Below are positions 7,468 through 51,087 of a stretch of DNA of 51,087 bases, in pieces. The notes beneath the pieces were generated by a model. The model was given only the letters and a program-made list of their open reading frames with translations. It made no database searches and was not told the origin of the DNA. The stretch comes from Aeromicrobium sp. (lineage in GTDB: Bacteria > Actinomycetota > Coriobacteriia > Anaerosomatales > Anaerosomataceae), in the NCBI GenBank assembly GCA_015351705.1, contig JADIIM010000029.1, forward strand, positions 1 to 51,087. The letters run 5' to 3'. Made by a program: the position numbers and the translations under genes. Each line of letters starts with the position of its first letter. Position 1 is the first letter of the stretch.

Positions 7468-7587
7468 GGGTATCGGCCTCCTCCACGGCGGCGCCCGCTT
7501 GAACGCGGCGTGCGCACCGGGTGCGATCACTCGGATGGCGGCCCGACCACCCGCGAAGCCTTCACGGCCGACGCCGTGAACCCATGC

Positions 7588-44847: not shown

Positions 44848-44922
44848 TGGTGGGCGATGAGGGATTTGAACCCCCGACTTCCTCCTTGTAAGGGAGGCAC
44901 TCTCCCGCTGAGTTAATCGCCC
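44848..44922 (-). tRNA. tRNA-Val (TAC)
   Basis: A 75-base cloverleaf on the minus strand. Acceptor GGGCGAT/ATCGCCC. Anticodon stem CCTCC/GGAGG surrounds loop CTTACAA, anticodon TAC. T-loop TTCAAAT, discriminator A, encoded CCA. Confidence 0.97.
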
Positions 44923-45023: not shown

Positions 45024-47246
45024 CTAGTACAGGCAAGCGGCGATCGCGTTCCTGACCGCCTGCGAGATGGCGACGAGGCCACCCGCGTAGCGGACCTGCG
45101 AGATCTGCTCCTTGTTGGCTTCGAGCGCGGCCTTGGTCTGAGCCGGCAGGAAGCTCGGGGACGTGAGCATCATCACGTTCCCGTTCGGCCCGAGCGCCGC
45201 GCCGAGCGCGAGTGCGTCCGGGTAGTTGTCGCCGGTGGCGATGCCGACCGTATCGACGCTCATGCCGAGGTTGTCGACGCCCCAGTCGGCGACCTTGGCC
45301 GCGGTGTCGTAGCGGTTCGACCCGCCGATGCGCTCGTCCTCGACCACGCCGAGCGCCGCGACCTGGCTGCCGACCTCAAGCGGAACGGCCACCGAGCCGC
45401 CCAGAACGATGACGGTCTCCACGCCAAGGTCGCTCATGCACGCCTCGGTCTCATCAAGAAGCCCCGTGGACTCCGAGAGGAAGACCGGCCAGCCGGCCCA
45501 TGCGGCAAGCGGGGAAGCGGCAAGCGCGTCGGGGAAGTTGCGGCCGGTCGTGACGAACGCCGTGCCGTCCCAGCCCTCATCCAGGTGCAAGACGAGCTCC
45601 TCGGCGATCAGGCACGCCGTCTCAAAGCGGTCCTCTCCGCCAAGACGCATGGTCTCCATGCCGAACTGGTCCCACAGCGCCTGCTCCACGTTGGCCGGGA
45701 TAGCGCTCTCTCCACCGAGGATGATGGCGTAGCTGGCGCCGAGGCGCTCGATCTCCGCCGCAACGTCTGCAGGCAGCTGCCACGCCACGCCGTTCTCAAC
45801 AGCACCGATCGCGACCTCGGCCGGAGAGGCCTGGTCGACGAGCAGGATCGGGCCGCCGTAGGCGGACGCGAGCGGGGCGCCGGTCAGCGCGTCCGGCCAG
45901 TTCTTGCCGGTGGCGATCACCACGGTATCGGCACCCAGCGGGAAGCTCTCACGCGAGATGTCGATGGCGGTCTGGTAGCGCGTGGCGCCCTGAAGCGGCA
46001 TCTTCTGTGTGGACACCGTGCCCGTGCCGAGGTACTTGGCGTACAGGTCGGCGTTGGAGTCATCGCCGTCCCACGGCCGGTGATCGTGCCAGTAGACCCA
46101 GCCGGCGTCAGTGGTCGAACGCCCGGCGTACTTGAACCACTCCTCGGAGATGGTGGCCTTGACCTCCGCTGCGGCCTCGAGCTCCTCGAGCGTCATCTTC
46201 TCGCCGTCAGCGGCAGCATCGACGGCATCCATGCCGGAGCCGAACTCCGCCGCAACGAGGAGGACTTCCTCCTCGTTGGCGATGTCGTAGCCCCAGACCT
46301 CCATCGAACCGCTGCGGCGGTCGGTCCACGTCACCCAGCCGTCGGAGACGACCGGATGCCAGCAGCTGTTCGTGGCGCTCGGATCACGCAGGTCGGTGAC
46401 CTCGCCGGTCGCGATGTCGTACATCTTGATCGTGTCGCGATTCCACCCACTGCTCCCGTTCCATCCATAGGAGTACTCGTTGAACACGACCTTGCCGTCA
46501 CCGACGTGGGGGTCGTAGTTGTGGACGTACTCGTAATCGTACGGCGGGCTCGGGTTGGAGTACGCCACGCCCTCTGCCACGCATGTCGCCTCATCGGAGG
46601 CGATGTCGTAGAGGTAGACGCTATAGTGACCACCGCTCGGAGTGGTGCGCTCGTCCCGCCATGCGATGTAGTTCTCCCACACGGTGGATTCACGCTGATT
46701 CGCGGGCCCAGGCGCCACAGCGCGCGCCTCGCCGGTCTTGAGGTTCTTCATCCAGATCGTACCTGGTGAGGAGCGCCAGTCGTTCCACGTGACGATATCG
46801 CCGTAGATGTAGGGGTTGCCCTGCCCATTCGGCGCGTCGCAAATCAGCGTCTCTACACCGGTGGCGATATCGTACATGTAGATATCGCACTCGGTCTCGT
46901 CGTAGTTGCGCTGATCGGAGTAGACCACACGCGTACCGGAGACGGCGGGGTTCGACTGCTCCCACAGCCCCTTGTTCTCAGGGGTGACCGCGAAGTCGCG
47001 TCCCGTTTCCATGTTGTAGACGCGGATGTGCGGCTCGCCCTCCCCGACGCCCATGTAGTCGTAGCGGCCGTCCTTGTAGGCCACATACGGCCAGTCGGCG
47101 TCCGGCTGTACCTGACCGCCCGGCGCCACCACCAGCGGGTACTCATCGTTGATGGCGCGCTCGCCGAATGCCGACAGCGCCCCAAAGGGCAGTAGCCCTA
47201 CCACCATGATGACGATGAGTGCGGTTCTTCGTACACGTGAACCCAT
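45024..47246 (-). CDS. secreted beta-propeller protein with three cell-wall-binding (CWB2) repeats
   Basis: A 740-residue exported protein. The signal peptide is 'TALIVIMVVGLLPFGALSAFG'-like (about 8-28). Residues 35-420 form TolB/YVTN-like propeller blades ('VVYSDQRNYDETECDIYMYD', 'WVTWTDRRSGSMEVWGYD', 'WVYWHDHRPWDG'). The last 310 residues carry three CWB2 repeats, each opening like 'RYQTAIDIS', 'RFETACLIAEE', 'RYDTAAKVAD' and containing 'NWPDAL/NFPDAL/NYPDAL' and 'ILGG/VLGG/YAGG'. CWB2 repeats hold proteins on the cell wall. GGAGG precedes ATG 47246. Role of the propeller (adhesion or ligand binding) is unknown. Confidence 0.92.
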   Translation of the reverse strand: MGSRVRRTALIVIMVVGLLPFGALSAFGERAINDEYPLVVAPGGQVQPDADWPYVAYKDGRYDYMGVGEGEPHIRVYNMETGRDFAVTPENKGLWEQSNPAVSGTRVVYSDQRNYDETECDIYMYDIATGVETLICDAPNGQGNPYIYGDIVTWNDWRSSPGTIWMKNLKTGEARAVAPGPANQRESTVWENYIAWRDERTTPSGGHYSVYLYDIASDEATCVAEGVAYSNPSPPYDYEYVHNYDPHVGDGKVVFNEYSYGWNGSSGWNRDTIKMYDIATGEVTDLRDPSATNSCWHPVVSDGWVTWTDRRSGSMEVWGYDIANEEEVLLVAAEFGSGMDAVDAAADGEKMTLEELEAAAEVKATISEEWFKYAGRSTTDAGWVYWHDHRPWDGDDSNADLYAKYLGTGTVSTQKMPLQGATRYQTAIDISRESFPLGADTVVIATGKNWPDALTGAPLASAYGGPILLVDQASPAEVAIGAVENGVAWQLPADVAAEIERLGASYAIILGGESAIPANVEQALWDQFGMETMRLGGEDRFETACLIAEELVLHLDEGWDGTAFVTTGRNFPDALAASPLAAWAGWPVFLSESTGLLDETEACMSDLGVETVIVLGGSVAVPLEVGSQVAALGVVEDERIGGSNRYDTAAKVADWGVDNLGMSVDTVGIATGDNYPDALALGAALGPNGNVMMLTSPSFLPAQTKAALEANKEQISQVRYAGGLVAISQAVRNAIAACLY

Positions 47247-47342: not shown

Positions 47343-47765
47343 TCACCGACTTTCGAGAACATTTCTGAGTCTGGTCAGATCCGTTCGGGCCAGCCTCTCC
47401 GCCTCGGCCACGATACGGCCCTCGGCCAGTTGTGCGACACCGCCCGGGTCGGCGGAGAACGACATGCCCACGCGCGTGCCCCCGCTCTCCGCGAGGCACT
47501 GGAACGCGAAGCGTGCGCGATACGGGTTGGACAGCCGTAGCGCGAAGCGCTCGGGCGGCGCGTACTCGGAAACCTCGAGCTCGATCGTGGCGCTACGCCC
47601 GCCGAACGAGTAGGTCTGCGTGACCCGGTCGCCAGTGCCCGCGACGGTGCCGCGAGAGGCGGTGAGGTGGCTGCGCCACAGCCGGTCGTTCGCCGGGTCG
47701 GTGATGAAGGAGAAGACCTCCTCGCGCGGCCGGGCGATCAGAACGCTGGCACGCGCGCTGATCAT
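47343..47765 (-). CDS. SRPBCC-fold (polyketide cyclase/START-like) protein
   Basis: A 140-residue soluble protein: 'ARASVLIARPREEVFSFITDP' at the N-terminus, 'YSFGGRSATIELEVSEYAPPERFALRLSNP' spanning residues about 57-86, and a long C-terminal helix. This is the SRPBCC hydrophobic-ligand-binding fold, often of unknown ligand. Its ATG overlaps the stop of the upstream small membrane protein gene (ATGA), so they are co-translated. Confidence 0.85.
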   Translation of the reverse strand: MISARASVLIARPREEVFSFITDPANDRLWRSHLTASRGTVAGTGDRVTQTYSFGGRSATIELEVSEYAPPERFALRLSNPYRARFAFQCLAESGGTRVGMSFSADPGGVAQLAEGRIVAEAERLARTDLTRLRNVLESR

Positions 47766-47971
47766 GAGTCGCCGCCTGCCCGTCGCAGCCCAAGACCGAC
47801 GGCGATCATCCCCAGACCTGCCGCGATAGAGGCGATGCCGGGACCGGGGCAGACGAGCATGGGTACGCCGATCGCAACGAGTGCGATGCCGACGGCGACA
47901 CTCACGCAACCAGGGCGGCCGGTAGGCGACGGCGGCTCCTGCATATCAGGGGTTCGCGGCGCAGTGTCCAT
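47762..47971 (-). CDS. small two-helix membrane protein
   Basis: A 69-residue protein with a soluble Pro-rich N-terminus of about 20 residues and two hydrophobic segments ('VSVAVGIALVAIGVPMLV' and 'GIASIAAGLGMIAVGLGL'), ending in Arg/Asp residues. The 'GPG' turn resembles small transmembrane proteins of the PGPGW type. ATG 47971 has only a weak AGG. It is coupled to the SRPBCC gene. Confidence 0.7.
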   Translation of the reverse strand: MDTAPRTPDMQEPPSPTGRPGCVSVAVGIALVAIGVPMLVCPGPGIASIAAGLGMIAVGLGLRRAGGDS

Positions 47972-48054: not shown

Positions 48055-48086
48055 CAGGGGAGCCGCCCCCTTGGACGACTCCCCTG
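48055..48086. terminator. hairpin beside a tRNA 3' fragment
   Basis: An 8-bp stem CAGGGGAG/CTCCCCTG with a 16-base loop, 9 bases beyond the CCA end of the tRNA-like fragment. It looks like the terminator of a lost tRNA gene. Confidence 0.45.
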
Positions 48087-48094
48087 TGAACGTC

Positions 48095-48124
48095 TGGTGC
48101 CCCCAAGGGAATTCGAATCCCGAT
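48095..48124 (-). other. 3' fragment of a tRNA gene, probable attachment-site remnant
   Basis: On the minus strand, CGGGATTCGAATTCCCT reads as a T-arm (one mismatch at the stem end), followed by TGGGGGC, discriminator A and CCA. No matching 5' acceptor (GCCCCCA) or anticodon arm is found upstream within 200 bases. This is the typical leftover when an element integrates into a tRNA 3' end. Confidence 0.55.
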
Positions 48125-48137
48125 AGTGCTTGTGACT

Positions 48138-48220
48138 ATTGGGACTACTTGGGACTCGTTGGTACTCAAGAGCTGCGGCGAGTCCCAATAGGTACCAACA
48201 AGTCCCAACGAGTACCATGT
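48138..48220. repeat. 10-bp-phased repeat array, direct then inverted
   Basis: Three consecutive 10-base units of the form nTTGG(G/T)ACTn (48138-48167) are followed by a 13-base spacer and then four units of the reverse complement, AGT(C/A)CCAnn or GGTACCAnn (48181-48220). All are spaced exactly 10 bases. The region can also fold as an imperfect hairpin. It may be a protein-binding array (recombinase or regulator) of an integrated element. Confidence 0.75.
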
Positions 48221-48224
48221 ATTT

Positions 48225-48248
48225 GGGCGACAAATCGGGCGACAAATC
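48225..48248. repeat. 12-bp tandem repeat
   Basis: GGGCGACAAATC occurs twice without a gap (48225-48236, 48237-48248), just after the phased array. The rest of the 470-base gene-free gap (47972-48441) shows nothing else I can name. Confidence 0.7.
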
Positions 48249-48441: not shown

Positions 48442-51087
48442 CTACTCGCTCCTCAGCGCCTCCACCGGGTCCTTGCGTGACGCCGCGGACGATGGGATCA
48501 GCCCGGCAAGGAACGTCAGCCCCATGCTGATGGCCACCAGGGCAGCGGCGGCGATTCCGGGCAGTATGGCGACGTTCTCGATATCGAAGTTGGCGTAGAT
48601 GATGGCGTTGGCGGGGATGATGAGCAGGCTCGTCACAACGATACCCAGCAGCCCGGCTACGAACCCGACGATCAACGTCTCGGCGTTGAACACCCGCCGG
48701 ATGTCGCGCTTCGATGCGCCGATGGAGCGCAGAATGCCGATCTCCTTGATGCGTTCCAGCACGGAGATGTAGGTGATGACCCCGATCATGATCGATGACA
48801 CCACCAGGGAGATCGCCACGAAGGCCACCAGGACGTAGCTCACCACGTTGACGATATCGGTCACGGAGGACATCAGCGTCCCCACGATGTCGGTGTAGGT
48901 GATGACTTTGTCATCGGCGCCCTCGGCCTCCATCTGCTCGTTGTAGCCATCCAGGATCTCAATGACCTGGCCCTTGCTCTCGAAGTCGACGGGGTAGATG
49001 TCGATGCTGGACGGTTTCGCGTAATCGGCGTAGCCCAGTTTGGCCAGGTTGCCGTCGTACGAGCTCTGTTCGGTTCCCATCATCGACAACATCAGCTGCG
49101 TCAGTTCTTCCTCATCCATGTTGAACTGGAAGATCTCTCCAAACGCGTTCGCGTCGATGGCCATGAGGCCGGACATGTTGCTGGTGAGCTGACCCATCGA
49201 CGACTCAAGGACGGCGCCGATCTGTTCCTGCAGAGCGGTGCCAAGCTCAGCGGTGATCTGCTGCGCGAGCGTGGAGAGCACCTGCTGCATGTACGTGGCC
49301 ATGCTGGCCTGGAGCTGCTCCCCTATCGCCGCTGAGACCGCATCGACCTGCGACTGAACGGCATCGCCGAGGCTCTCGGCCAGCGCCGCGAGCAACCGGC
49401 TCTGCAGCTCGCCCAGACCGGTCTCCGCGCCACCGAAGAGCGACTCGGTCTCCGCCAGGATGGCCTGGCCGTCGGCTGACGCAAGGAAGAGTGGGAAGTT
49501 CGTTTGCGTGTCCACCGGATCCAGGCCCTCGGCGGTGCAGAACTCAAGGTAACCCTGAACCATCCGGTTGGCCACGTCGGCGACCTGCTCCGCGTCCACG
49601 CTGAAGTCGATGCCCTCGATGAGTGCCGCGTAGTCGATTCCGGCGAGCGCTGCCTCCAGGTCGATCTCGCCAAGCCCCGAGGTCAGATCAAGTCCGGCAA
49701 GCGCGTCGTCAAGGTCAAGTCCGGCAAGCAGGTCTGCCGGGTCGAGTGCGGGCATGGCGGACGGATCCAGGCTGAAGTCCTCCATCGAGAAGTCCAGCGC
49801 CGAGGGATCGAACGCCAGCTTCGACGCATCGAAGCTGAACATCGAGGCCATCGCGTCCTCATCCACCGTCACCAGCGACGCCATGTCGAACCCTTCTCGT
49901 TCCGGGTTCTCCTCCTCGTCCAGGAAGGTCCGGCCCGAGAATACGTTCGTTGCGGGCTCGTTCAGCTGCATGCGCACGATCTCGGTCTCGGCCGCCTCGG
50001 TGACAAGGCGGGCGGTCAGCGCCGGCGTGTAGTAGATCCCGGGCTGTAGCGCGGTCGCGGTCGACCCGTCCTTGGCCTGGACGACACCGACGATGCGAAT
50101 GTCCTCGCCGCTTTCCACCAGCCCCTTGAGGTACTCGGTGTCCGTCTGCTTGTCGGTCCAGACGTTGTACTGCTCGTCGTAGACATAGTAGTCAGTGGCG
50201 TTCACCACCTTGAACGAGACGCCCATGAGTTGCTCGTGCGTGAAGGACCTGGTGTCGGTCGGTGTGACGATCTCCTCGTCGTTGACCATCTGCTCCACCA
50301 TCGCGTCCAGTTCGGAGGCATCGCGGAGTCCCATCGCGTAGGACATGAAGTCGCTGACCCCGCCGTTTGGAGTCAGCACCACCACCGTCTCGTTGTACGC
50401 CGTCGGCCAGCGTCCGGCCTTCACGTCGTACTGCCCTTCGATTATCGCGATGTCATCAACCAGTTCCCCGAACACGTTGGTGCTCATGCCGGAGGCCATC
50501 AGGGCGTTCGTCGAAGAGGCCGCTCCAAAGCCGAGCGCAGAGAAGGTGGTGTCCGGGTTGACCTGGCGCACACCTTCCGAGGTGTCCGAGCTGAAGATCT
50601 GCGGCGTCACGTTGTAGGAGTACTGGATCAGGTTGACCTGGTCGTTGATGCCCCCGCCGTTCCCGTCCAGGTACACCTTGAGCGCGGCCAGGTCGTTGGA
50701 GCCCACGGACTCGAACATCCGTGTCATCATCCGCAGCTCCTGCACGTCGCCCTCGCCCGCTGCGGAATCCGTGCTGTCGCCCCCCGCGCCACTGTCGCTC
50801 TCATCCGTTCCCCCGGCCATGTCGCTCGATGCTCCAAACAGCGCGGTGAAGTCCATGCCCTGGCTCTGGATCGTCAGCGGGTACAAGGAGAGCGCATCTT
50901 CCTCGACGCTCGCGATGTACTCGTTCACACCGTTGGCCAGCGCCAGGATGGCAGCGATGCCGATGATGCCGATGCTGCCCGCAAAGGCCGTCATCAGCGT
51001 TCGGCCCTTCTTGGTCATGAGGTTGTTGAAGGAGAGTGCGATGGCGGTCAGGAATGACATGGACGTCTTCCTGACGCTCTTCTGGCT
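48442..51087 (-). CDS. MacB/FtsX-type ABC permease, probably the C-terminal part of a fused ATPase-permease (cut by window edge)
   Basis: From ATG 51060 it reads 872 residues: TM1 (about 22-44, 'FAGSIGIIGIAAILALANG'), a very large extracytoplasmic region of about 690 residues, and three C-terminal helices with 'VLERIKEIGILRSIGASKRD' and the end 'RKDPVEALRSE'. Although AGGAAG precedes ATG 51060, the frame continues without a stop to the window end ('SQKSVRKTSMSFLTA'), and this junction resembles fused ATPase-permease proteins, so the gene is treated as partial. Residues about 410-490 are an unusual Asp/Leu/Ala pseudo-repeat. Confidence 0.85.
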   Translation of the reverse strand, partial: SQKSVRKTSMSFLTAIALSFNNLMTKKGRTLMTAFAGSIGIIGIAAILALANGVNEYIASVEEDALSLYPLTIQSQGMDFTALFGASSDMAGGTDESDSGAGGDSTDSAAGEGDVQELRMMTRMFESVGSNDLAALKVYLDGNGGGINDQVNLIQYSYNVTPQIFSSDTSEGVRQVNPDTTFSALGFGAASSTNALMASGMSTNVFGELVDDIAIIEGQYDVKAGRWPTAYNETVVVLTPNGGVSDFMSYAMGLRDASELDAMVEQMVNDEEIVTPTDTRSFTHEQLMGVSFKVVNATDYYVYDEQYNVWTDKQTDTEYLKGLVESGEDIRIVGVVQAKDGSTATALQPGIYYTPALTARLVTEAAETEIVRMQLNEPATNVFSGRTFLDEEENPEREGFDMASLVTVDEDAMASMFSFDASKLAFDPSALDFSMEDFSLDPSAMPALDPADLLAGLDLDDALAGLDLTSGLGEIDLEAALAGIDYAALIEGIDFSVDAEQVADVANRMVQGYLEFCTAEGLDPVDTQTNFPLFLASADGQAILAETESLFGGAETGLGELQSRLLAALAESLGDAVQSQVDAVSAAIGEQLQASMATYMQQVLSTLAQQITAELGTALQEQIGAVLESSMGQLTSNMSGLMAIDANAFGEIFQFNMDEEELTQLMLSMMGTEQSSYDGNLAKLGYADYAKPSSIDIYPVDFESKGQVIEILDGYNEQMEAEGADDKVITYTDIVGTLMSSVTDIVNVVSYVLVAFVAISLVVSSIMIGVITYISVLERIKEIGILRSIGASKRDIRRVFNAETLIVGFVAGLLGIVVTSLLIIPANAIIYANFDIENVAILPGIAAAALVAISMGLTFLAGLIPSSAASRKDPVEALRSE

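Follow-up and report, generated by a model that had tools for sequence, protein, structure and literature searches.

The attachment sites of the Tn916/Tn1549 and lambda integrases are composed of a core and arm repeats of about 10 bp. CIMEs are elements that lack integration and transfer genes, keep their attachment ends and form a tandem, at a tRNA 3' end, with a conjugative element that carries an integrase (PMC5704250); described examples of CIME/ICE/IME accretion are the ICESt1-related elements and the tRNA-Lys islands of Streptococcus agalactiae (PMC5704250). The ssrA islands of Dehalococcoides are likewise in tandem, with direct repeats of the RNA gene 3' end, and have been suggested to be cis-mobilizable; 16 of them have an integration module and 15 do not, the recombinase is the serine recombinase DsiB and the target is the tmRNA (PMC3146451). 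Integrons and CALINs are arrays of small cassettes, some without an integrase and mobilised in trans by an integrase located elsewhere (PMC11389934). Finally, tmRNA-targeted islands with IntY have direct-repeat flanks, defence cargo and helper-dependent transfer, and each is a single island that encodes its own integrase (PMC12595487).

Here, we analyzed a stretch of 51,087 nucleotides (the window), which is contig C39 in an assembly of 2.07 Mb and 60 contigs. Taking the local and the general claim as one, we consider it likely that a site-specific cassette array lies at tRNA-Glu, that the segment at 48055-48248 is its outermost junction, where it borders host DNA, and that integrase-less cassettes are added to it through the integrase of a conjugative element acting in trans. 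A literature search with most subscription journals and preprints outside its coverage yielded no account of such an array, so a prior report is possible, and the mobile-element terms looked for are absent from the paper on the first isolates of the order (PMC9686372).

Structure of the site and its surroundings

The preliminary description had listed seven 10-bp units, three direct and four inverted, in exact 10-base phasing. The array is real, but it contains four motifs in each orientation, hence eight; the direct motifs start at 48130 (TTGTGACT), 48139, 48149 (TTGGGACT) and 48159 (TTGGTACT), and the inverted motifs at 48181, 48191, 48201 and 48211, with a spacing of exactly 10 except for the first step, which is 9 (Table 1). 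Among the 40-mers of the window, the arm stretches had the top lag-10 self-identity (0.70), and the arms also contain every one of the window's seven 26-bp inverted repeats that reach 20 or more of 26 pairs. The 12-bp tandem repeat described earlier was recovered as two perfect copies, and the same repeat recurs in the right ends of cassettes and inside the integrase gene.

Table 1. Positions of the junction features and of neighbouring landmarks in the window
Position	Strand	Feature	Basis
44848..44922	-	tRNA-Val(TAC), host landmark	Adjoins tRNA-Glu in several array-free relatives
47343-47765	-	SRPBCC-like protein gene, host flank	Homologue just outside first unit in G005, G007, G018
47762-47971	-	Small membrane protein gene, host flank of array boundary	Taken together with the 47343-47765 gene
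48055..48086	-	Hairpin at original host terminator position of tRNA-Glu, now outer edge of the proposed array	Inverted repeat with 14-bp arms
48095..48121	-	3' 27 bp of tRNA-Glu(TTC), proposed attachment-site core	Matches intact tRNA-Glu 3' end in relatives
48130..48166	+	Four direct 10-bp candidate arm motifs, TTGGKACT-type	Self-comparison in window, alignment of units
48170..48178		Nearly invariant centre GAGCTGCGG separating two half-arrays	Alignment of units
48181..48218	-	Four inverted 10-bp candidate arm motifs	Self-comparison in window, alignment of units
48225..48248	+	12-bp tandem repeat GGGCGACAAATC x2, end of conserved unit	100% identity
48249..48298		Extra left-end sequence, common to about ten other cassettes	Conserved for 48-49 bp past the unit
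48442..51060	-	FtsX-domain ABC permease, 872 aa, probable cassette cargo	Pfam FtsX; contig ends at 51087

The tRNA 3' end without its 5' half was also borne out. The core matches, base for base, the 3' end that intact tRNA-Glu(TTC) genes have in the genomes of relatives, and no complete tRNA was called at its position by ARAGORN or Rfam. The intact tRNA that had been expected to share this 3' end is therefore present in relatives, but it was not found in the window's own assembly. Similar hairpins to the one just downstream of the tRNA fragment occur at the empty sites of relatives and at outermost units. A reading of the site as a non-coding RNA was dropped, since the 48055-48248 segment had no Rfam match.

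The permease to the right of the junction is probably cassette cargo. DNA with 86% identity to it occurs in G044, a member of another family, with a cassette right end and a unit to the right of this DNA; permease orthologues in G009, G016 and G039 are chromosomal, in stretches without units. On the host side, a large gene with repeats, putatively for a cell-surface protein (45024-47207, minus strand), occupies the space between tRNA-Val and the array boundary, and partial relatives of it lie near the arrays of G008 and G009. Elsewhere in the window, an nhaA-I riboswitch at 7533-7583 (minus strand) scored above the Rfam gathering threshold.

The genome to which the window belongs shows only a single unit, that of the outer junction, and neither purH, the right-flank gene of the tRNA-Glu site, nor the cognate tRNA-Glu integrase was found in its assembly. 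Considering that tRNA-Glu and purH are both absent from it, the far end of the array seems to be unassembled, and the missing part presumably holds the rest of the array. Contig C19 of the same genome encodes a related tyrosine integrase (L131:4216-5399), 42% identical to the tRNA-Glu one and adjoining tRNA-Met, which is perhaps part of a second tRNA-targeted element.

Distribution of the unit and organization of the cassettes

Other copies of the array, whose existence had been left to a genome search, turned out to be numerous. The unit of about 154 bp is present in about 115 copies, which stand in tandem behind tRNA-Glu and are spread over 30 of 61 genomes from the order Anaerosomatales/OPB41 (29 of the 60 searched relatives and the window's own); the copy number is a manual count of listed matches scoring about 100 bits or more. 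A single genome has as many as about 11 units, and in G008 seven tandem units between 304 and 335 kb precede an intact tRNA-Glu located at 342 kb. In a class-wide search of 398 genomes, unit matches were confined to the same family and order, and a pattern scan of 84,980 species gave 58 stretches, each of them from a MAG labelled Coriobacteriia, Anaerosomatales, or unspecified Actinobacteria/Actinomycetes. The unit had no match in plasmids, and an exact search with one unit pattern found none in viral contigs. Chance can be ruled out because about 115 conserved copies exist in 30 genomes; the named array records are metagenome assemblies, and assembly error is disfavoured by the same recurrence. 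The relatives lacking the array, with which a comparison had been proposed, carry an intact tRNA-Glu beside tRNA-Lys, and in several of them tRNA-Val is adjacent as well. G003 has such an empty site, though G013 and G018 of the same genus bear arrays.

Almost every unit contains the core sequence, with 26-27 bp identical to the tRNA-Glu 3' end. The earlier proposal that the tRNA fragment is an attachment site holds up well, as the same unit repeatedly bounds mobile cassettes at tRNA-Glu in relatives. Phased inverted motifs are possible binding sites for many proteins, and a regulatory or structural repeat unrelated to integration, such as a binding array for a nucleoid or replication protein, could be imagined on this general ground. 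We find that explanation scarcely credible, because the units always include the tRNA-Glu core, mark the borders of cassettes and occur in an integrase-bearing element as well.

When the distances between consecutive units were collected, 37 of 46 intervals spanned 1.0-9.9 kb (counting one doubtful case of 998 bp in G016) and nine spanned 19-53 kb. The left end, common to all cassettes, consists of core, arms and 12-bp repeat. Most cassettes also have a common right end, about 100-250 bp long, which closes with CTGACCTGCG ahead of the next core, and outermost units border host sequence instead of a cassette right end. Variants of the 12-bp repeat (GAC/ACC/AAC), compared by eye between left and right cassette ends, showed no consistent match. 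Many right ends, for example the one in L057 just left of 9576, also contain a hairpin GTAGCCCGATTTC...GAAATCGGGCTAC just past the 3' end of the tRNA, with which the cassette perhaps supplies a new terminator in place of the old one. Two arrays, G013:C2 (L061-L062) and G007:C36 (L069, L121), have long intervals of 30-40 kb that share about 12 kb at 89% identity without a cognate integrase, possibly another large element between the same ends.

The small cassettes examined contained no integrase gene, and, except for fragments in G041 and G007, matches to PF00589 belong to int genes linked to tRNA-Glu or fall outside the arrays. Neither an excisionase nor a transfer origin was found on the cassettes. 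Cation efflux, P-type ATPase, ABC transporter and aldehyde ferredoxin oxidoreductase genes occur among the variable cargo, as do AbiEii/AbiEi, Fic, an NgoMIV-type restriction enzyme, a YobI/Tmn-like ATPase and a Dsr1-like protein. Using a simple gene caller of our own, 72 of 99 called cargo genes were oriented toward tRNA-Glu. Genes for a protein of about 500 aa with a C-terminal cupredoxin-like domain (L058:1111-2613) recur in several cassettes, including those of G015 and G023, beside P-type ATPase or cation-efflux genes.

To compare arm sites with a folded site, we aligned 51 distinct units. TTGG/CCAA was nearly invariant in most motifs while the intervening bases varied, and the 10-bp spacing of the eight motifs was kept throughout. 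The distance from core start to arm end was 126 in 42 units, 116 in six and 136 in one, and it was one base off in three. These lengths indicate the gain or loss of entire motifs, which is what a requirement for helical phase would produce, and the earlier idea of phased sites is consistent with this turn-of-helix spacing, on which a protein would bind. In the best inverted pairing, 18% of about 1,260 cells were unpaired with 0 double compensatory cells, and in the second, 21% of about 1,400 cells were unpaired with five. Arm length changing almost only by 10-bp steps, along with almost no compensatory change, points to integrase arm sites and not to a folded attC-like site, which was rejected since base pairing is not conserved; from their sequences, the motifs look like candidate arm sites of an integrase. 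The same figures bear on a true integron or a relative of one with a folded single-stranded substrate. Array form, arrays without integrase, cargo running mostly in one direction and strong inverted repeats would all suit an integron, but besides the poor pairing, the core is a tRNA 3' end and the integrase resembles Tn1549 and phage integrases, which makes an integron highly improbable.

The integrase, the conjugative element and probable cassette movement

A tyrosine integrase of about 453 aa, conserved at 85% identity or more, was found in eight of the 61 genomes, all of them array-bearing, and in all eight its gene overlaps the tRNA-Glu 3' end. The reading frame crosses the right-end 12-bp repeats (KSGDKSGDKS) and then the core (VPPREFESLLPP). 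According to our own reading, the catalytic residues expected for the family are conserved. The nearest solved structures include Tn1549 Int, by sequence and by fold, and integron integrase is also among the fold matches at a lower rank. In a structural model of low overall confidence, residues 2-59 form three strands and a helix with pLDDT of about 47-80, and lambda Int aligns to the model from residue 2 at a large rmsd. We take this strand-strand-strand-helix arrangement of the N-terminal domain to be the shape of known arm-binding domains.

In G010, G018, G001 and G015, the integrase gene lies within an element of 45-53 kb at the array, which was not seen at most other arrays. The G010 element has type IV secretion genes; VirD4, TrbL, a VirB4-like ATPase and ParA were recognised in it by Pfam, along with a weak relaxase match. 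The preliminary description had offered the segment as the scar or the end of an element, with no integrase gene left in the window; an end with its integrase elsewhere agrees with the matching integrase of relatives, whereas a scar does not hold.

Several comparisons point to movement. Cassettes G010_5195 and G015_14929, from different genera, are 99.8% identical over 3.4 kb, and the alignable host flank of the two genomes is about 73% identical, save for 82 bp near the tRNAs. The AbiE cassette (about 1.97 kb) is alignable end to end in G023, G009 and G044, the last from another family, as is the Fic cassette (about 1.5 kb) in G018 and G039, and the neighbours of common cassettes were unrelated in both pairs compared. 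Such identity across two genera argues against the view that the arrays are immobile relics, an ancient repeat family at tRNA-Glu in which movement has ceased. That view could draw on the lack of a cognate integrase in most array genomes, on the stops in the integrase copies of G045 and G053, and on damaged outer cores in some units (G015_6207, G015_13390), but six integrase copies are free of stops, the cores of most units are intact and an intact tRNA-Glu stands at the array end, so we judge relics to be quite improbable.

G023 and G008 share two cassettes, and G008 has five more between these and tRNA-Glu. This layout, together with the position of the conjugative element there, suggests that new cassettes enter next to tRNA-Glu. 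In the cassette-array explanation, a cassette would consist of the left end (core, eight phased arms and 12-bp tandem), cargo, and a right end abutting the next core. The tyrosine integrase of the conjugative element probably binds arms and core and would recombine a circular cassette, after its excision, with the tRNA-Glu 3' end; each integration would restore tRNA-Glu and push older cassettes outward. Cassettes may be mobilised in trans, or as a composite with the helper element by accretion. Since most arrays lack an integrase, cassettes would move only when a helper is present.

Alternatively, cassettes may be separately decayed copies of the conjugative element, that is, classical CIMEs that lost integrase and transfer genes, with no dedicated cassette class. 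The conjugative element has the same core and left end as the cassettes, a 9.9-kb interval in G045 ending in an integrase copy with two stops is a plausible decay intermediate, and some 30-40 kb intervals have no integrase. However, the small cassettes mostly carry two other right-end types, with an extra segment of about 75 bp, instead of the integrase-linked type, and compact 1.5-2 kb cassettes recur end to end across genera and families. We therefore hold separate decay to be rather unlikely, though it deserves serious consideration.

Comparison with known systems

Beyond the cassette-array explanation itself, we tentatively put forward a broader proposal, to be taken as a whole and a little short of an even chance: that the arrays are a cassette-capture platform independent of integrons, in which visiting conjugative elements supply the integrase for double-stranded recombination, at tRNA-Glu, of dedicated integrase-less cassettes with conserved ends of their own, and the cassettes form a pool of defence and metal-resistance genes shared across the families of the order. 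If cassettes do move through the integrase of a helper, bacteria would have a second means, besides integrons, of keeping small gene modules in an ordered array and exchanging them. In this subsurface order, which has been little studied, the arrays hold many anti-phage and metal-resistance genes, and with their natural 10-bp classes of arm length the role of helical phasing in integrase complexes could be tested directly.

Compared with Tn916/Tn1549 and lambda, the integrase shares the tyrosine recombinase fold and a predicted N-terminal domain resembling an arm-binding one, but the eight motifs are one-sided, in two opposed half-arrays around an invariant centre, and the integrase gene runs into the tRNA core. 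The arrays resemble integrons and CALINs as rows of small cassettes mostly without integrase. In contrast to those, the units have no attC-like folding signal, and their core is a tRNA 3' end with apparently double-stranded arm-type sites. Among solved structures, the integrase comes closest to Tn1549 Int in sequence and fold, an integron integrase standing lower among the fold matches. Dehalococcoides ssrA islands also accumulate many tandem elements at an RNA gene 3' end, whereas the target here is tRNA-Glu and the linked enzyme is a tyrosine integrase instead of the serine recombinase DsiB. As with the IntY tmRNA islands, the cassettes are repeat-bounded at a small RNA gene, carry defence cargo and would depend on a helper for their transfer, yet they stand in arrays and mostly lack an integrase of their own. 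Like CIMEs, the cassettes keep both ends, the small ones have no integrase and some arrays are in tandem with a conjugative element; unlike CIMEs, their units number up to about 11 in one genome and about 115 across the order, right ends of separate types mark the small cassettes, most arrays are without a resident integrase and cassettes recur across genera. Taken together, the arrays are best read as the known accretion of CIMEs in an integron-like variant.
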